Of a stretch of 17,595 bases of DNA, positions 4,496 through 14,737 are shown piece by piece. The notes beneath the pieces were generated by a model, which was not told the DNA's origin, did no database searches, and saw nothing but the letters and a program-made list of their open reading frames with translations. Source of the stretch: Balneolaceae bacterium. GTDB lineage: Bacteria; Bacteroidota; Rhodothermia; Balneolales; Balneolaceae. Positions within the stretch are counted from its first letter, which is position 1. Every line of letters starts with the position of its first letter. The translations under genes and the position numbers were made by a program. The stretch lies in assembly GCA_003555185.1 (NCBI GenBank), contig PWFZ01000402.1:1-17595 (forward strand), written 5' to 3'.

Positions 4496-5593
4496 ATGGA
4501 AAATGATACCGTGGATGATAGAAAGTCTACTAATACTAAAAACATCGGAGATTCTCGTGAAAAACCTGTTCTGATTACAAAAAGCCCCGCTATGCTTGAT
4601 TTATACCGCAAAATCAAATTGGTGGCAAAAACAAAGGCGACGGTTTTAATAACCGGTGAAAATGGAACAGGTAAAGAGGTTTTTGCCAGTCTTCTGCACT
4701 ATCACAGCAAAAACAGTAACAAGCCTATGGTAACCGTAAACTGCGGAGCCATTCCCGGTGAACTTGTTGAAAGTGAATTACTAGGTCACGAAAAAGGCGC
4801 TTTTACAGGTGCTATCGCGCAAAAAAAAGGGTGCTTCGAAATGGCCGATAAAGGTACTCTGTTCCTCGACGAAATTGGAGAAATGTCCTTAAATGCTCAG
4901 GTTAAATTGTTGCGAGCTGTTGAAATGGGCACCTTTCGCAGAGTAGGTGGTAAAGAAGAGGTTCATGTTGATGTGACCTTAATTTCGGCTACCAATAAAA
5001 TTTTAAGTGATCAGATTAAAGCAGGAAGCTTTCGGGAAGATCTTTTTTATCGGTTAAATGTTGTAGAGTTATATATACCACCGCTCCGACACCGAAAAGA
5101 GGATATCCCACTGCTGGTAGAATTCTACAAAAATGTTTACTGCGATCTTTACGAGCTGCACGACGCAGATTTTACAAAAGAAGCATTAGAGGTATTGATG
5201 AACTATGACTGGCCTGGAAACGTACGTGAATTAAAAAATACCATAGAGAGATGTATAGTTCTTCTTGAAGGAAGTAAGGTTACACCCGATATGTTGCCGG
5301 TTTCAATTTCCAAAGCAAAATCAAAATATTTCAACGGCTTCTCTGATGATTCAAACAGCTACCTTCATATTCCGGTTGGAACCAGCCTGGATGAAATTGA
5401 AAAACAAGCTATTAAACAAACTCTTCGATCTGTAGATAATAATAAAACAGAAGCGGCAAAATTGTTAGGGTTTGCCAGAAAGACCCTGCACAACAAACTT
5501 GACAGATACGACTCAGAGAGCTACAGTACTATACAAAATAATAAAGCCAAGCCCGAAAAATCGGACTTGGCTGAAGTTTCAGCGATGAGTTAA
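4496..5593 (+). CDS. Sigma-54-dependent transcriptional activator without sensory domain (PspF-like layout)
   Basis: 365 aa. Only about 23 residues precede the AAA+ domain, so there is no receiver, GAF or PAS domain. All core motifs are present: Walker A GENGTGKE (54-61), the sigma-54-contacting GAFTGA (101-106), Walker B TLFLDEIGE (121-129, D125/E126), the arginine-finger segment FREDLFYRLNV (179-189) and WPGNVRELKN (239-248). A Fis-type helix-turn-helix covers about 303-337 (IEKQAIKQTL to TEAAKLLGFARKTLHNKL). It should hydrolyse ATP to open sigma-54 promoters such as that near 16783. Lacking an N-terminal switch, it may be controlled by a partner protein, as PspF is by PspA. AAGAGAGATT precedes the ATG. 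The last about 16 codons overlap the terminator of the converging GH5 gene. Confidence 0.93.
   Translation: MENDTVDDRKSTNTKNIGDSREKPVLITKSPAMLDLYRKIKLVAKTKATVLITGENGTGKEVFASLLHYHSKNSNKPMVTVNCGAIPGELVESELLGHEKGAFTGAIAQKKGCFEMADKGTLFLDEIGEMSLNAQVKLLRAVEMGTFRRVGGKEEVHVDVTLISATNKILSDQIKAGSFREDLFYRLNVVELYIPPLRHRKEDIPLLVEFYKNVYCDLYELHDADFTKEALEVLMNYDWPGNVRELKNTIERCIVLLEGSKVTPDMLPVSISKAKSKYFNGFSDDSNSYLHIPVGTSLDEIEKQAIKQTLRSVDNNKTEAAKLLGFARKTLHNKLDRYDSESYSTIQNNKAKPEKSDLAEVSAMS
5538..5572 (-). terminator. Rho-independent terminator for the GH5/FN3 lipoprotein, inside the activator gene
   Basis: Plus-strand arms at 5545-5556 and 5561-5572 flank a 4-nt AAAA loop. Read on the minus strand, the 12-bp stem is complete with one G-U pair, the loop is TTTT, and it is followed by TTATTATTTT. 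This is a good intrinsic terminator about 65 nt after the stop of the GH5 gene at 5638. On the plus strand the same hairpin has a C-A mismatch and no T-tract. It lies within the last codons of the activator. Confidence 0.75.
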
Positions 5594-5637: not shown

Positions 5638-7887
5638 TTACTTAAGGCCCCTCATGTTGTCTATATGTTGTTTGAACTTGTTATAAAGCTCTGTATCCTC
5701 ACGTCCGCCGGGATAGCAGATATTTCCGCCAAATTCCCAGCACTTTTCGCCATCGGCAACAAGTTGCCACAACAGGTTTCCATCCACTTTAAGATCTTCG
5801 ACCTGCTCGTAAAGATCATCATACATTGCGTGAACGTTGTCATTAGCCCAAGCCGGGAAACCAAATTCACCAATTATAAATGGCTTATCATGGTTATCAG
5901 CAATTCGCTGGTGATCAACTAACCAGGCACGCTGTGCTGTTAACATATCATCAGTTACGTTTTGGCCAAATCCCCATTCGTTAGGGTACCAGTGCGCACT
6001 CCCGAAATCAATTTCAGGGATGGCTGTATTCTGGATATAACTGGTTCCGAGTTGTGCCCGAAGTACATACGTATTGCTGTAATCTTCCACTGTATATTCA
6101 GATGGAGTTCCATCATCAAAACCCTCTTCACCCGTTCCTACCAAGTGATTCGAGTCGATTGATTTGATGTACTGAGCAATTTCCTGATACCAGTCTCGCA
6201 ATACTGCCGGGTTTCCATTGCTGTTTCGGCCTTCGTTCATTATTTGCCATGCAAAAATAGCAGGCTCATCTTTGTACTTCACTCCGGTTACTGTATTCAC
6301 ACGGTTTAGAAGCATATCGATGTAATCCTTAAACCATTTCTGAGTTTCGCTATTGTTCATAAAGAACTCCATATTTCGAGACGGATTGGATGCACCGGCC
6401 CAAGTATTATACTGGCAGATACCGCCTAACTCATCCCAATAATTAACAAATGGAATGATAAACTTAATACCGCGCTCTTTACCTTTTGCAATAACCCTGT
6501 CAAGATCACGCAGTGCAGATTCGCTGTACTCACCCGGTGCAGTTTGAATTACGTTTTCATTCGAGTCATGCCTGCTATATCCGCAATCATACCCATCATA
6601 AAAACCCCACATTCGAAGTACGGTTACACCGGATTCTTCGAATAGGTTAAATGCACGATCCACCACCCCTGAATTTATTTTCTCATAGTTTGGCAGATAA
6701 TAAGCGTTAGTACCGGCAAAACGGTAGGTTTCACCATTTAATACAAAATTAGAGTTTTGGGTTGTAACAAAATCTCCGGAAGAAGGTGGTGCTGTATATG
6801 ACTCTGATTCCGTTGATAAGGACCAGACATCTGACCACTCATCGTGGGCACCTTCTACTTTCACTCGCCAATAGTACTCTTTCTCGTAATCCAGATCTTC
6901 AACAGAGTATGATGAACCGGTTACTGTTTCTTCCATAAGAACAAAACCAAATGATGGATCATCAGAAAGCTGATATTCATATCTATTGAACCCGCTCTCT
7001 TCTTCCCATGTAAATTCGAGATTTGTCGACAAATCCGTGTCGCCATCAGCCGGAGAAATCAGCGTTACTTTTGGATGTGTTGTGTCATCTGAGTCGTCAT
7101 CACCTGAGTCACCAGAATCATCACCGTTGTCACCATTATCTCCATCATCGGGGTCATCACCGTCATCGCCAGAATCATCTGTGCCATCTCCTGTTTCAAC
7201 TAAGAAACTCCATACGGAAGACCATGGACCGTTTCCGGCTTCCAACTCCGGAGCAACTCTCCATGAGTATTCTCCGGCTTCCAGGTCATCAACATTAATA
7301 GAAGATGATGATACCAGCGTATCCACGATAAGCTCGGTAAAATCGGCATCAGCTGACACCTGGTAGTTATAATTTTCCACATCTTCCATGGCATCCCATT
7401 CAAACTTGATTTCACCCTCTTCGAGGTTTATGCCATCATTTGGGGAAATCAAATCTACAGCGCCGGGTTCGGCTTCAGATTCTCGTGTGGTGAAGCTCCA
7501 CACCTCTGACCACGGACCTGAGTTACGTTGTTTTATCGGAAAAACTTTCCAGTAATAGGTAGTTCCGCGGGTTAAAGAAGTAGCATTAAAAGATATAGAA
7601 GCATTATCAAATGAATCGGCTTCAATCACAGTATCAATTACTGCTGATTCAAAGTTTTCCGTTTCGGAAACCATTAATTCATATGTTCTAGCTCCCCTAA
7701 TTTGTTTCCATACCAGTTCAACATTTATTGACTGATCTTTCGCACTGTTTTCAGGAGATAACAGTTCTAACTGTTCTTCCGTATCTGTATCAGTATCACC
7801 AACACCTGGATCAACAGAATCGCATTGGGTTATAAAGGCGAATACCACAATCAGTGGCACTGCCAACTTAAGAATTGTTGTTTTCAT
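5638..7887 (-). CDS. GH5 (mannanase-like) glycoside hydrolase lipoprotein with FN3-like modules
   Basis: 749 aa. Residues 1-22 are a signal ending FITQC; C22 is the likely lipidation site although Gln at -1 is atypical. Then come two fibronectin-III-like modules (about 40-135 and 143-231, each ending PWS.VWSF), an Asp/Gly/Ser linker (232-268), a third module (about 273-362) and a GH5 catalytic domain (about 372-749). The acid/base is in QIMNEGR (N551-E552) and the nucleophile in IIGEFGFP (E674). AHWYP (631-635) and WQLVADG (707-713) are typical active-site segments. The closest match by pattern is the endo-beta-1,4-mannanase type. It is probably surface-anchored and acts on the locus's own EPS or on external mannan. 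The catalytic domain is nearly the same as in the next gene. The start at 7887 gives the signal directly. Confidence 0.9.
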   Translation of the reverse strand: MKTTILKLAVPLIVVFAFITQCDSVDPGVGDTDTDTEEQLELLSPENSAKDQSINVELVWKQIRGARTYELMVSETENFESAVIDTVIEADSFDNASISFNATSLTRGTTYYWKVFPIKQRNSGPWSEVWSFTTRESEAEPGAVDLISPNDGINLEEGEIKFEWDAMEDVENYNYQVSADADFTELIVDTLVSSSSINVDDLEAGEYSWRVAPELEAGNGPWSSVWSFLVETGDGTDDSGDDGDDPDDGDNGDNGDDSGDSGDDDSDDTTHPKVTLISPADGDTDLSTNLEFTWEEESGFNRYEYQLSDDPSFGFVLMEETVTGSSYSVEDLDYEKEYYWRVKVEGAHDEWSDVWSLSTESESYTAPPSSGDFVTTQNSNFVLNGETYRFAGTNAYYLPNYEKINSGVVDRAFNLFEESGVTVLRMWGFYDGYDCGYSRHDSNENVIQTAPGEYSESALRDLDRVIAKGKERGIKFIIPFVNYWDELGGICQYNTWAGASNPSRNMEFFMNNSETQKWFKDYIDMLLNRVNTVTGVKYKDEPAIFAWQIMNEGRNSNGNPAVLRDWYQEIAQYIKSIDSNHLVGTGEEGFDDGTPSEYTVEDYSNTYVLRAQLGTSYIQNTAIPEIDFGSAHWYPNEWGFGQNVTDDMLTAQRAWLVDHQRIADNHDKPFIIGEFGFPAWANDNVHAMYDDLYEQVEDLKVDGNLLWQLVADGEKCWEFGGNICYPGGREDTELYNKFKQHIDNMRGLK
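7084..7194 (-). repeat. Asp/Gly/Ser-rich low-complexity linker segment
   Basis: Encodes residues about 232-268 of the GH5/FN3 protein, almost only Asp, Gly, Ser and Asn in patterns such as DDGDN and GDNGDD. It separates the second and third FN3-like modules. Such stretches act as flexible linkers and can bind calcium. The DNA (CATC/CACC-rich on the plus strand) is repetitive and prone to length change. Confidence 0.65.
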
Positions 7888-7889
7888 TA

Positions 7890-8026
7890 TGAGCGTTTTT
7901 AGAATTGATCATTCCAAAATTGAGCATAGTTAAGCCGGCCCATTTAGATTTGAGCTTTCTAAATCGGATACTTAGTAGCTGAGCAACTTCGGAACTGAGC
8001 GTTTTTATTTAGAGCGTTTTGAGAAC
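7890..8026. repeat. Degenerate ~15-bp repeat array, leader of the GH5/FN3 gene
   Basis: On the plus strand, units start at 7890, 7906, 7921, 7936, 7951, 7966, 7980, 7996 and 8011, with spacings of 14-16. Most begin TGAGC or TGATC, followed by T-rich then A-rich sequence (example TGAGCGTTTTTAGAAT). The units at 7936 and 7966 are the most diverged. In the mRNA sense each unit ends GCTCA. The array starts 3 bp before the start codon and fills the leader or promoter. A homologous array of the same length precedes the next GH5 gene. Confidence 0.7.
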
Positions 8027-8102
8027 TCGATAAACCTTTTATGTAAGTCTTACCGATTACATTCAATCTTACGTTGATTGAAATTTCACTACATCGAATT
8101 AT

Positions 8103-8128
8103 AAACCGAGCGCATAAAAGCCCGGTTT
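8103..8128 (-). terminator. Stem-loop after the second GH5 gene
   Basis: Arms AAACCGAGC (8103-8111) and GCCCGGTTT (8120-8128) pair on the minus-strand transcript with one G-U pair and an 8-nt loop, 15 nt after the stop at 8143. The following sequence is not a clean T-tract (ATAATTCG), so it may be a weak terminator or an mRNA 3'-end stabiliser. Confidence 0.45.
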
Positions 8129-8142
8129 ACTTACATTCGGCC

Positions 8143-9429
8143 TTACTTAATGTTCTTCATATTGGTAACATGTTCCTGAAACTTCATATAGAGGTCGGCA
8201 TCTGCACGGCCTGCGGGATAACAAATATTACCACCGAATTCCCAGCATTTTGTGCCGTCTGCAACTAACTGCCATAACAAATTTCCATCTATCTGTATAC
8301 TTTCAGCATGCTCGTATAAGGCATCATACATTGCATGTACGTTGTCATCAGCAAAACCAGGAAATCCAAACTCACCGATCACAAATGGTTTGCCATGGCT
8401 GTTGGCAATTTCCTGATGATCATCAAGCCATGCGCGTTGTGCTACGAGCATTTCGTCATCTACAGTGGTTCCAAACCCAAATTCATTTGGATACCAATGA
8501 GCTGTTCCAAAATCTATTTCAGGGATAGCCATGTTAAGTACATAACTTGTGCCATTTTCGGACCGAAGTGGATAGGTATTTTTGTAATCTTCAACAGTAT
8601 ATTCTGATGGAGTGCCCTCATCAAACCCTTCCTCACCGGTAGACACCAAGTGATTTGAATCTATCGACTTAATATACTGAGCCATTTCCTGGTACCAGTC
8701 GCGTAGAACCTGTGGATCACCGCCTGCATTTCTACCTTCATTCATTATTTGCCATGCAAATATTGCAGGTTCATCTTTATATTTCACTCCTGTTACGGTA
8801 TTTACCCGGTTCAGCAGCATATCGATGTAATCCTTAAACCATTGTTGGGTTTGACTGTTAGAGATAAAGAACTCCATATCGCGGGATGGGTTTGACGCAC
8901 CCGCCCAGGTGTTATACTGACAAATACCGCCTAATTCATCCCAATAATTGATAAATGGGATGATGAATTTCACGCCGTGTTCTTTCCCTTTGGCAATTAC
9001 ATTATCAAGATCCCGAAGTGCTTCTTCGCTATATTCGCCGGGCGCTGTTTGCATAACGTTTTCATCAGGATCGTTTTTACTGTATCCACAGTCGTAACCA
9101 TCATAAAACCCCCACATCCGAATTACCGAAATTCCCGTGTCCTCAAACAGCTTAAAAGCCCGGTCTACAACCGATGAGTTTAACTTTTCATAATTGGGCA
9201 GATAATAAGCATTGGTACCGGCAAAATGATAGGCCTCATTATCCAGTACAAAACCAGAGTTTTGTACCTCAACAAATGAGCTGTTTACCGGTTCTTCAGT
9301 ACCTGTAATATCCCCGTCACCGGATGGATTTACTTCGTTTAGATCTGTGTTCGATGAAACTGAGTCGCATTGGGTTAAAATGGCTAATACCAAAATAACA
9401 GGTACAACCAACTTTAAGATTGGTTTCAT
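8143..9429 (-). CDS. GH5 (mannanase-like) glycoside hydrolase lipoprotein, short form
   Basis: 428 aa from the ATG at 9429. An ATG three codons upstream (9438) is possible, but 9429 matches the start of the paralogue at 7887 and leaves the upstream ATG inside the repeat array. The signal ends AILTQC and is followed by DS, the same atypical Gln-Cys lipobox as the paralogue. After an acidic linker of about 25 residues the catalytic domain follows directly; the FN3 modules are absent. Numbered from 9429, the acid/base is E231 in QIMNEGR and the nucleophile E353 in VIGEFGFP. Blocks such as WDELGGICQYNTWAGASNPS are identical to the larger enzyme, so this is a recent duplication. Predicted surface-bound endo-glycanase. 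Confidence 0.9.
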   Translation of the reverse strand: MKPILKLVVPVILVLAILTQCDSVSSNTDLNEVNPSGDGDITGTEEPVNSSFVEVQNSGFVLDNEAYHFAGTNAYYLPNYEKLNSSVVDRAFKLFEDTGISVIRMWGFYDGYDCGYSKNDPDENVMQTAPGEYSEEALRDLDNVIAKGKEHGVKFIIPFINYWDELGGICQYNTWAGASNPSRDMEFFISNSQTQQWFKDYIDMLLNRVNTVTGVKYKDEPAIFAWQIMNEGRNAGGDPQVLRDWYQEMAQYIKSIDSNHLVSTGEEGFDEGTPSEYTVEDYKNTYPLRSENGTSYVLNMAIPEIDFGTAHWYPNEFGFGTTVDDEMLVAQRAWLDDHQEIANSHGKPFVIGEFGFPGFADDNVHAMYDALYEHAESIQIDGNLLWQLVADGTKCWEFGGNICYPAGRADADLYMKFQEHVTNMKNIK

Positions 9430-9431
9430 GT

Positions 9432-9570
9432 TGAGCATTTTTTAGAATTGAGCACTAAAACTGATCATTCTACAGCAGGCCATTTTGGACTTGAGCTTTC
9501 CAAAAGCAGAGCGCCTTAGAAATGATCAGCTTTAGATTAATTGAGCTTTTTTGTTTGGACTAATTACTTC
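9432..9570. repeat. Degenerate ~15-bp repeat array, leader of the short GH5 gene
   Basis: Plus-strand units start at 9432, 9449, 9462, 9477, 9492, 9508, 9523, 9542 and 9556, with spacings of 13-19 and mostly 15. Most start TGAGC, AGAGC or TGATC. Units 1, 4 and 5 align closely with units 1, 4 and 5 of the 7890 array (for example TGAGCATTTTTTAGAAT and TGAGCTTTCCAAAAGC), showing shared origin. Other units differ in length and order (TGATCATTC is unit 3 here and unit 2 there), so the array has been remodelled since duplication. Confidence 0.7.
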
Positions 9571-9794
9571 TGTTTAAAGCATTTTGTATCAGCAGAAATT
9601 ATTTACGAAATTTTGCAAATAATTTTTGCGTGGAGTCTCTTAAGCTCAATGCACCAATTATGTTTCATTAATTTTCCAAAAAAATGACAAGAGAATTTAT
9701 CCGCCCCGATAAATAAAAGACAAACAATTATTTATCGGAATATTAAAATTAGAGGCCTTTAATAAACGGTTATAGTAGTATTCGCCTTAAGTAT

Positions 9795-9889: not shown

Positions 9890-11146
9890 TTATTGAGCTC
9901 TAGGGACGTACTGAACATTTTCGACATGCTGCATAAATGTTTTGAAGAGATGAGTGTCTTCTCTGCCACCGGGCCAGCAAATATTCCCTCCATATTCCGG
10001 ACACTTTACATAGTCGGCGGTTAATTGCCAGAATAAACTTCCGTCCAGTTTAATCTCTTCGGCTGTGCGCCATAAAGATGTATACATGGCAACCACCCTT
10101 TCATCACCCCACCCTGGGAACCCATATTCTCCTAAAACAAAAGGTTTCCCGTAATCAGCGGCGATTCTTTGATGATCGGTTAGCCACGCATTCTGAGCTC
10201 TTAAAAGATTTTCTGTGATATTATATCCAAACCCAAATTCCGATGGATACCAATGAGCATTTCCATAATCAATTTCAGGTATGGCTGTGTTCATTACATA
10301 ACTCGTTCCTTCATTCGCTCGCAGTGCATATGTATTACTGTATTCACTTAAACTATACTGGTCGGGAGTGTTATGGTCGAACCCTTCCTCCCCGGTGCCT
10401 ACCAAATGATTTGGATCGATTGATTTGATGTACTGTGCCATTTCACGGTACCAATCGCGAAGTATTTTTGGATCCTGTCCCCTGTTTCGCCCTTCATTCA
10501 TTATTTGCCACGAGAATATTGCCGGCTCATCTTTGTAAGCAACACCGGTATAAGTGTTCACACGGTTCAGAAGCATTTTAATATAATTCCGAAACCATTC
10601 CTGGGTCTTATCATTCGAAAGAAAAAATTCCATATTCTGTGATGGTTTTTCGGCTCCTGCCCACGTATTATACTGGCATATGCCTCCCAACTCATCCCAA
10701 AAATTAATAAAGGGCAGTATAAATCGAATATTCTGCCGTTTACCTCGGGCAATTATATAATCAAGATGGCGTAAAGCCTCCTCATTATAGATCCCCGGAG
10801 CAACCTGAATAACATTTTCATTGTCATCTACAGCGCTGTATCCACAGTCGAACCCATCGTAAAAAGCCCACATTCGTACAACCGTAATACCGGCTACATT
10901 AAAGGCATTAAACGCTCTTTCCACTACTGTAGGGTCTAGCTTTTTATAATTGGGCAGATAGTAGGCGTTGGTGCCGACAAAACGAAATTCACCTCCATTT
11001 AATAAAAATGTCCCCTCAGAAACTTCTGCGAAAGACGTCATTTTATCGGGCGGGTTATAAAAATTATCTTGCAGTTCTAAAAACGGTGATACAGCAAGTA
11101 CAACGAGAAACCATACATATATTAAATTTATTCCCTTGATCGTCAT
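9890..11146 (-). CDS. GH5 (mannanase-like) glycoside hydrolase, operon-encoded third copy
   Basis: 418 aa. The N-terminus (about 1-22) is a signal peptide or membrane anchor without a lipobox Cys, unlike its two paralogues. The catalytic domain starts near residue 37. The acid/base is E218 in QIMNEGR and the nucleophile E340 in VLGEYGFP; AHWYP (297-301) and FWQLTAD are conserved. It differs from the other two at many positions (GEYGFP instead of GEFGFP), so it is the older branch. It starts 12 bp after the GNAT gene and is the last gene of the EPS operon, so its expression is tied to EPS export. A role in trimming or releasing the cognate polymer is an inference from position. Confidence 0.9.
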   Translation of the reverse strand: MTIKGINLIYVWFLVVLAVSPFLELQDNFYNPPDKMTSFAEVSEGTFLLNGGEFRFVGTNAYYLPNYKKLDPTVVERAFNAFNVAGITVVRMWAFYDGFDCGYSAVDDNENVIQVAPGIYNEEALRHLDYIIARGKRQNIRFILPFINFWDELGGICQYNTWAGAEKPSQNMEFFLSNDKTQEWFRNYIKMLLNRVNTYTGVAYKDEPAIFSWQIMNEGRNRGQDPKILRDWYREMAQYIKSIDPNHLVGTGEEGFDHNTPDQYSLSEYSNTYALRANEGTSYVMNTAIPEIDYGNAHWYPSEFGFGYNITENLLRAQNAWLTDHQRIAADYGKPFVLGEYGFPGWGDERVVAMYTSLWRTAEEIKLDGSLFWQLTADYVKCPEYGGNICWPGGREDTHLFKTFMQHVENVQYVPRAQ

Positions 11147-13918: not shown

Positions 13919-14737
13919 TTACAAGTTATAAGGTAGTTTCCAGTTCATAGAAAATGGCAGGTGGTGACTCTCAATTACCTCTCCATGCGAAAGTACTGCC
14001 CCTTGTATAATGGCATTTTTCAACTGCCTTACATTTCCCGGCCAAGAGTAGAGTATGCATTCATTAATGGCTGCCTGAGACATGCTTAGACTATCCCAAT
14101 CCGGCTCAGTCAATTTTGCTTCTTCTAAAAAGGTTCTGATTAACAGAGGAATATCTTCTTTCCTTTCTCGCAATGGTGGCAGCATTATCGACATAGGATT
14201 GAGAGATTTTAACAGCTTACTCCACACCTCGGTTTTCGTTAAACACTGGAATGCATCCTGGCTAATGGAAATAATTAGCCTGGGTGAAAGTGCCGGATTA
14301 TACTTGAAAAGTTGATTACAGCCTCTTGTATAGGAATCAATTACATTGAGCATAAATGAACTGGATAACTCCGAAAACTGATCCAGATACAGAATACCAC
14401 CACCGGCTTTTTCCAATACATCATATTTAATTTGTAAATGCTCATTTTCGAAGTGAATATGCTCCCAGAATGCATCTTTAAATTCAGCTTCATTAACGTC
14501 GATGCAGTAAAATGAATGAAATGGACCATCTGATCTATTGCTGTAACTATGAATACTATGTGCCAGCCTTTTTTTACCCACACCAATTTCACCTATTAGT
14601 ATCACATGCTTTTCCAGGCGGGCAATACTTTTTACTTTTTTAAAAATATCTTTCATCAGGGAGCTCTCTGTATGGAAACTATTCCGCTCTGATTGATTAT
14701 TTTTTTGTTGTGTAAGATTATTTGATGAGGCGATCAT
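13919..14737 (-). CDS. Degenerate sigma-54-activator-like AAA+ protein in the EPS operon
   Basis: 272 aa. The fold signature of a sigma-54 activator AAA+ domain is clear: Walker A GEIGVGKK (49-56), GGGILYLDQFSEL (112-124), MLPPLRERKEDIPLL (185-199) and WPGNVRQLKN (232-241). Key parts are missing. The GAFTGA loop is replaced by sequence around FENEHL (96-101), Walker B reads D119-Q120 instead of D-E, the FREDLFYRL arginine-finger segment is gone (VWSKLLKSLN instead) and there is no helix-turn-helix. It may bind ATP but should not remodel sigma-54 or bind DNA. It lies 4 bp after the PorV-like gene and 42 bp before the WecA fusion. It may be a partner or inhibitor of the intact activator at 4496; that is an inference. 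Confidence 0.85.
   Translation of the reverse strand: MIASSNNLTQQKNNQSERNSFHTESSLMKDIFKKVKSIARLEKHVILIGEIGVGKKRLAHSIHSYSNRSDGPFHSFYCIDVNEAEFKDAFWEHIHFENEHLQIKYDVLEKAGGGILYLDQFSELSSSFMLNVIDSYTRGCNQLFKYNPALSPRLIISISQDAFQCLTKTEVWSKLLKSLNPMSIMLPPLRERKEDIPLLIRTFLEEAKLTEPDWDSLSMSQAAINECILYSWPGNVRQLKNAIIQGAVLSHGEVIESHHLPFSMNWKLPYNL

Follow-up and report, generated by a model that had tools for sequence, protein, structure and literature searches.

What kind of element precedes the two GH5 lipoprotein genes of this locus, and does it act as DNA or as RNA? The sequence-only reading of the window (the whole stretch of DNA analysed, 17,595 nucleotides from a Balneolaceae bacterium whose genome, G000, is 2.66 Mb and 74.6% complete) had described two homologous leaders, each built of about nine degenerate units of roughly 15 bp. 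It had left two interpretations side by side: a multi-site platform for a DNA-binding regulator, or a structured or translation-controlling 5' UTR. Our analysis argues for the second. We propose, with a probability of about 0.55, that the leader is a cis-acting structured 5' UTR of GH5 lipoprotein mRNAs, one whose fold keeps the start site accessible and may rearrange into an adjoining hairpin. It is a real, conserved element, tied to these GH5 lipoprotein genes and probably acting at the RNA level, and folding predictions indicate that its approximately 120 bases probably form a hairpin structure just ahead of the start codon.

The gene content of the window is that of a polysaccharide cluster: three GH5 genes, all on the minus strand (Table 1), are accompanied by genes for a family 4 glycosyltransferase, a polysaccharide export protein and two AAA proteins of the sigma-54 type. 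The nearest solved relatives of the 431-aa GH5 are endo-beta-1,4-mannanases. The third GH5 (9890-11146) begins 12 bp past the preceding ORF and, as originally read, has no leader; our two-hairpin model (R1) and our rod model (R2) each hit nothing in the window except the two known leaders. One of the AAA proteins (13919-14737), a sigma-54 interaction protein, adjoins the polysaccharide export genes and has no DNA-binding domain recognised by Pfam, and the second (4496-5593) carries an HTH_8 domain. A tandem 18/27-bp repeat lies near the window edge (161-230).

Table 1. Genes, leaders and predicted folds in the window, with the support for each.
Feature	Position	Strand	Support
GH5 lipoprotein gene 1, 749 aa, behind leader W1	5638..7887	-	
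GH5 lipoprotein gene 2, 431 aa counted from ATG 9438, behind leader W2	8143..9438	-	
Leader W1, through its ATG	7885..8006	-	full-length R1 and R2 matches; W1 in training set
Leader W2, through ATG 9429	9427..9552	-	R1 and R2 matches; W2 in training set
AAAACGCTC/AAAAGCTC stretch	about 8006 (W1) and 9552 (W2)		
Predicted rod of W1, 31 pairs, end at -22 from ATG	7909..7998	-	minimum-energy fold, shuffle p 0.017
Predicted rod of W2, 32 pairs, end at -26 from ATG 9429	9455..9535	-	minimum-energy fold, shuffle p 0.033
W1 hairpin A: ATTTAGA, loop AAGCTCAAA, TCTAAAT	7942..7964	-	p 0.002; pair counts, eight leaders
W1 hairpin B: TTTTGGAA, loop TGATCAA, TTCTAAAA; competes with rod base	7897..7919	-	p 0.002
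W2 hairpin A: TTTTGGA, loop AAGCTCAAG, TCCAAAA	9483..9505	-	p 0.002
W2 hairpin B: TTTTAG, loop TGCTCAATT, CTAAAA	9440..9460	-	p 0.020; forced fold
W1 last GCTCA unit, 2 nt ahead of ATG 7887	7890..7894	-	
W2 last GCTCA unit, 2 nt ahead of ATG 9429, within possible longer start ATG 9438	9432..9436	-	

Because the GH5 genes lie on the minus strand, the units read GCTCA or GATCA in the mRNA. Positions 7890-8026 hold five GCTCA and six G[CA]TCA, whereas dinucleotide shuffles average 0.34 and 0.43 (neither count was reached in 2000), and positions 9432-9570 hold four and six, against means of 0.53 and 0.63 (reached by 1 and 0 of 2000 dinucleotide shuffles). This enrichment, far above that of the shuffles, confirms that two homologous repeat leaders stand upstream of GH5 genes; TGAGC in mRNA sense occurs in neither interval. 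The count of about nine units each holds for degenerate units, but exact G[CA]TCA units number only six per leader, or seven if GCTC and GATC are counted. Both arrays end 2 bp ahead of an ATG, that of the first at 7887 and that of the second at 9429, within the 2-3 bp that had been stated; in gene 2 an upstream in-frame ATG (9438) falls at the last unit. Spacings between successive G[CA]TC lie near multiples of 15 (15, 16, 29, 30, 15 and 16 in the first leader; 19, 15, 16, 30, 13 and 17 in the second). The expected excess of identity at lag 15 was present in the first leader (0.377 vs 0.262, p 0.0075) but weak in the second (0.339 vs 0.264, p 0.05), and significance at lag 45 was confined to the first leader (p 0.0005; second leader, p 0.14). 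Neither the best lag within 10-30 (p 0.08 and 0.60, respectively) nor the top count of any 5-mer (p 0.26 and 0.66) was significant. Tandem Repeats Finder reported neither array, and a repeat finder picked up a single direct pair across the two leaders, located in the first; the repetition is therefore degenerate.

GH5 matches were found in 21 of 92 family genomes; of 244 class genomes, 12 gave strong ones (E up to 1e-60). Ten related loci lie in named genomes, seven of them labelled Balneolaceae, Balneolales or Balneola and the rest Rhodothermia, Cryomorphaceae and Mollicutes. In a tree of the catalytic domain (no supports were read) the operon-type GH5 copies split from the lipoprotein type. 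Within the lipoprotein type, one clade holds both window genes with L038 beside them, together with L033, L036, L040 and L035; its sister clade comprises L031, L032, L034 and L037, and L081, L082 and L005 fall outside. The tree omits L040b, which precedes a remnant only, and L006 and L009, whose genes are cut by contig ends. Within L040 (591-760) we observed a second copy of the leader (591-716) followed by a GH5-type signal peptide broken by a stop; this is a remnant, all that survives of a duplication that took in both leader and signal peptide. The upstream regions of L089 (400-623) and L090 (450-728), which precede the GH5 genes of G093 and G096, are long and similar to each other, with other hairpins, scattered GCTCA and no rod as defined below.

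The units are conserved among these relatives, as had been anticipated. When an HMM trained only on the leaders of five relatives (L033, L040, L040b, L009 and L036) was searched against nine sequences, its best matches were W1 (E 4.7e-7), L035 (2.7e-5) and W2 (1.2e-4); it matched neither L037, L031 and L034 nor the leaders of L006, L038, L089 and L090. Between lineages, leader identity was 0.53-0.70, compared with 0.32-0.39 at the four-fold sites of the same genes, which are saturated, and within L033, L036 and L040 it was 0.75-0.88, compared with 0.61-0.69. Shuffled leaders, when aligned, gave a mean identity of 0.32-0.34 and a maximum of 0.49 (five pairs, 60 shuffles each). Leader identity thus exceeds both four-fold sites and shuffles, and we therefore consider the leader to be under selection.

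We then compared the nine GCTCA-type leaders (W1, W2, L033, L040, L040b, L009, L036, L035 and L006). Exact G[CA]TCA recurs at set distances from the start codon: six leaders have it at -113 to -117, six at -67 to -73 and six at -23 to -25. In L006 the middle site is at -44, and L037, outside the nine, likewise has a site at -25. The arms on either side of the middle site can pair over 6-8 positions, G-U included, and close loops of 9-10 nt (AAGCTCAAA, AAGCTCAAG, AGGCTCAAA), and the stems differ between leaders (ATTTAGA/TCTAAAT, TTTTGGA/TCCAAAA, ATTAGA/TCTAAT). In L006 the whole stem is replaced, by GTTAATTA/TAATTAAC, and GCTCA is kept, which shows that the stem is replaceable while the motif stays; this leader has three further unpaired GCTCA ahead of its ATG. 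The -23 site has stems of 6-9 pairs in six leaders and a weak one in L037 (5 pairs, p 0.052), and the units at -117 and -7 form no stem. Altogether 13 of 29 G[CA]TCA sites in 13 leaders have a stem score of at least 6 (p 0.002-0.02 each, uncorrected). On an alignment of eight leaders, hairpins A and B had 95.1% paired cells, against 17.6-57.4% when slid. Their covariation score was reached by 3 of 500 shuffles, albeit from few independent sequences, and their number of double-change pairs by 56 of 500; extra pair types showed no excess (216 of 500 shuffles reached the count). The earlier statement that the array was kept while its units turned over is thus roughly right, except that part of the turnover consists of paired arms changing together.

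The best folds of the first seven leaders tried each contained one long imperfect hairpin, hereafter the rod, with hairpin A at its tip. We scanned positions -125 to +3 of 15 leaders for rods that comprise 23 pairs or more and end between -20 and -26, a cut-off set after the leaders had been seen; control starts were simply first ATGs. The 15 leave out the loci cut by contig ends (L005/L088, L032, L026 and L027), duplicate records and the leaderless operon-type GH5 copies. Ten leaders (W1, W2, L033, L040, L040b, L009, L036, L037, L031 and L034) have an unbranched predicted rod that qualifies, with its end between -22 and -26, and five (L035, L006, L038, L089 and L090) do not. In L035 the rod appears once the leader is trimmed; L038 has neither units nor rod, despite its place next to the window genes in the tree. 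Among the controls, 65 regions upstream of other open frames in the retrieved loci, rods of 23 pairs or more occur in 16, one of which ends at -20 to -26 (Fisher p 2e-8; 1e-5 when the leaders are counted as 6 of 11 lineages).

Measured against shuffles, the rod reached p 0.013-0.047 in the first seven of these ten (W1, W2, L033, L040, L040b, L009 and L036) and 0.056, 0.070 and 0.159 in L037, L031 and L034 of the sister clade. On the eight-leader alignment it had 78.8% paired cells, against 30.8-47.2% when slid, with no excess of extra pair types (455 of 500 shuffles reached the count). L037 and L031 have 12 paired columns in common, with one double change, and either of them shares three with L034, with none; the rods of the sister clade thus agree more in position and form than in demonstrated base pairs. 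The energies of the folds are modest (z -0.26 to -2.52 in the initial folds and +0.68 to -3.15 in the folds of the 15), and L040 and L036 fold little better than shuffles. R1 scored higher than R2 on their three shared matches (136.1 vs 130.1, 103.4 vs 96.4 and 97 vs 91.6 bits), and L037 was reached by R1 alone (E 0.01).

The predicted folds stop just outside the initiation region, which, together with units in one sense only, their fixed distances from the AUG and hairpins that keep the loop and change the stem, supports the structured 5' UTR of the original alternatives. In Flavobacterium, the region from -20 to +20 has lowered structure, and structure tunes initiation (PMC6847099); the rods described here, ending at -22 to -26, lie just outside such a zone. 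The initiation region is more open than its upstream in W1, W2, L037 and L031, with differences of 0.36-0.42 compared with 0.28 at the controls' 99th percentile, and is not unusually open in L040b. An in-frame ATG lies 9 nt upstream in W2, L033, L040 and L009, and W1, L036, L035 and L037 have none; where present, it could be the true start, and the fold would then lie closer to it.

Similar TCTAAA strands occur in a 5' unit and in the last unit, and either strand can pair with the TTTTAGA/TTTTGGA arm near -30. Because the two compete for this one arm, the rod may re-pair into hairpin B. Forcing hairpin B costs 3.1 kcal/mol in W1, 9.7 in W2, 3.9 in L033, 1.7 in L040, 3.3 in L040b, 2.2 in L009, 8.2 in L036 and 6.3 in L035. 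Forcing the rod-base register of L033 is free in L040, L040b, L009 and L036 and costs 3.1, 7.0 and 14.2 kcal/mol in W1, W2 and L035, which use other registers. Given these costs (1.7-9.7 kcal/mol) and a hairpin B that is broken in L036, we doubt the switch in W2 and L036. The predicted fold switch is cheap in some leaders and costly in these two, and amounts to anatomy rather than proof.

Under the structured-UTR reading, the rod would keep the ribosome landing zone free and perhaps also guard the 5' end of the mRNA, and hairpin B, ending 9-10 nt ahead of the conserved AUG, would hinder initiation. The apical loop (mostly AAGCUCAAA) would be the likely docking site of a trans factor, either a protein or a small RNA, that tips the balance, and the repetition would then represent a pairing strand present in several competing copies, together with copies of a single loop. 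Riboswitch-like switches are comparable in that two mutually exclusive pairings may form by the start codon, and they differ in that no ligand-binding core is recognised here: Rfam returned no match for the window and 13 related loci at gathering thresholds, or for the W1 stretch at E up to 1. Structured 5' UTRs are already a known kind of element; the repeat-and-loop architecture of this one is unusual and has no Rfam family, and we found no description of such a leader in the literature searched, at the level of titles and abstract openings.

A simpler alternative is that the hairpin merely shields the 5' end of the mRNA from nucleases and involves neither switch nor partner. The open initiation region behind a long hairpin fits this view, as does the persistence of the rod in leaders whose hairpin B is broken or missing (L036, L031 and L034). 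The mRNA of E. coli ompA is protected from nucleases by such a 5' stabilising stem-loop, and it resembles our leader in having a 5' UTR hairpin and an unpaired stretch ahead of the start. However, the leader here repeats a conserved loop motif outside the hairpin, and plain stabilisation leaves unexplained both the conserved GCUCA loop and the GCTCA copies adjoining the ATG in W1, W2 and L006. We regard it as unlikely to be the whole account.

An RNA element of this kind should be distinguished from an array of DNA operators, in which several copies of a transcription regulator bind TGAGC/TGATC sites at the promoter. The repetition of a short motif, some units that are palindromic in DNA (TGATCA, and GAGCTC in relatives) and the sigma-54-type regulators encoded nearby are consistent with operators. 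The units nevertheless occur in one orientation only and at a fixed distance from the AUG, their spacing of 13-19 bp does not fit the DNA helix, and the stems change on both sides. Moreover, our pattern and model searches, which are of limited sensitivity, found no leader upstream of genes other than GH5 (R1 in 92 genomes and R2 in 244), and the further copies looked for ahead of other kinds of genes did not turn up. The multi-site DNA platform is accordingly not favoured, and we consider it distinctly unlikely.

These searches were as follows. The exact hairpin pattern gave seven mismatch-free matches in the 92 genomes, all at GH5 leaders or at the L040b remnant. With up to two mismatches there were 69 matches in 44 of the 92, compared with 66 for the reversed control, so most of the loose matches are chance. 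First-look candidates numbered hundreds in most genomes, and R1 and R2 scoring was carried out under strict filters. Among the best 38 candidates scored per genome, R1 gave seven strong matches and one weak match in the 92 family genomes; among the best 14 scored per genome, R2 gave eight strong matches in the 244 class genomes. All strong matches of both models are training sequences, and the known leaders L006, L031, L034 and L037 were missed. With few candidates scored under strict filters and known leaders missed, these results do not prove absence elsewhere, only that no other strong copy surfaced. The weak R1 match, in G083 (E 0.003), runs antisense to an open frame of 612 codons, and we attribute it to chance. 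Within G000, GCTCA pairs 13-17 nt apart occur 22 times, compared with twice for the reversed pattern; two of the 22 are the leaders and 20 lie elsewhere. The generic loop pattern RGCTCAA has 493 sites in this genome.

Alternatively, a small RNA could pair with the GCUCA loops near the start codon, in the manner of the FopS/GibS RNAs of Bacteroides. FopS sRNAs pair close to the start codon and thereby block translation, and they also bind three glycoside hydrolase mRNAs (PMC11697453). The likeness lies in the same kind of site, namely control at the translation start of mRNAs for glycan-processing enzymes within the wider Bacteroidota; unlike those targets, the leader here is itself built of repeated units and hairpins. 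Rfam scans, the sole search made for a partner RNA, returned no match. A small-RNA target appears quite improbable. That the leader is instead the relic of a pentapeptide-repeat coding sequence, its 15-nt period being five codons, is highly improbable: one L033 frame does read SNLKT SDSKA SSILE S SNLIM ANLRK TDFRE LNSKN and resembles Pfam PF00805 (E 0.027), but this was one of five peptides tried and scored 14.5 bits against a cut-off of 20.2, W1, W2 and L009 contain stops or frame shifts, differences from L033 by codon position (L040 9, 3, 3; L040b 9, 5, 5; L036 12, 7, 12; L009 12, 5, 5) show no concentration at third positions, and the neighbouring frame, which the first-position excess would suit, has stops in L033 and L040.

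As regards protein partners of a structured 5' UTR, leaders controlled by CsrA/RsmA carry several GGA-bearing loops, one of them near the start codon. The present leader is similar in having several copies of a short motif, partly in hairpin loops and one beside the start codon, and differs in that the motif is GCUCA, not GGA. We rejected it as a CsrA-regulated leader: its loops hold GCTCA or GATCA and no GGA, and csrA (PF02599) was found in none of five genomes (our own, 74.6% complete, and others at 90-99%), compared with 3 of 14 control genomes. An RRM-type (RbpB-like) protein was likewise rejected as a general partner, PF00076 (RRM_1) being present in one of five leader-carrying genomes (G025) and not found in G000, G064, G065 and G077. 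More speculatively, and with a rather low expectation on our part, the leader might represent a new RNA control in which an RNA-binding factor of Balneolales-type bacteria would recognise GCUCA both within loops and next to the start codon, following a CsrA-like logic although no CsrA turned up, and would flip the leader between the rod, with its start site open, and the start-proximal hairpin, so that the output of secreted mannanase-like enzymes matches exopolysaccharide synthesis. We found no account of post-transcriptional control in this Balneolales-type group in the literature searched. A compact leader with repeated loop motifs and changing stems offers a handle on the regulation of mRNAs without Shine-Dalgarno sequences, and it also bears on the balance between making exopolysaccharide and the enzymes that may cut it.

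Promoter-like sites were not above chance (5 vs 6.6 expected). Directly upstream of leader W2 (9592-9629) we observed two abutting 19-nt arms that are 84% complementary; they are possibly a regulator site or a promoter region.
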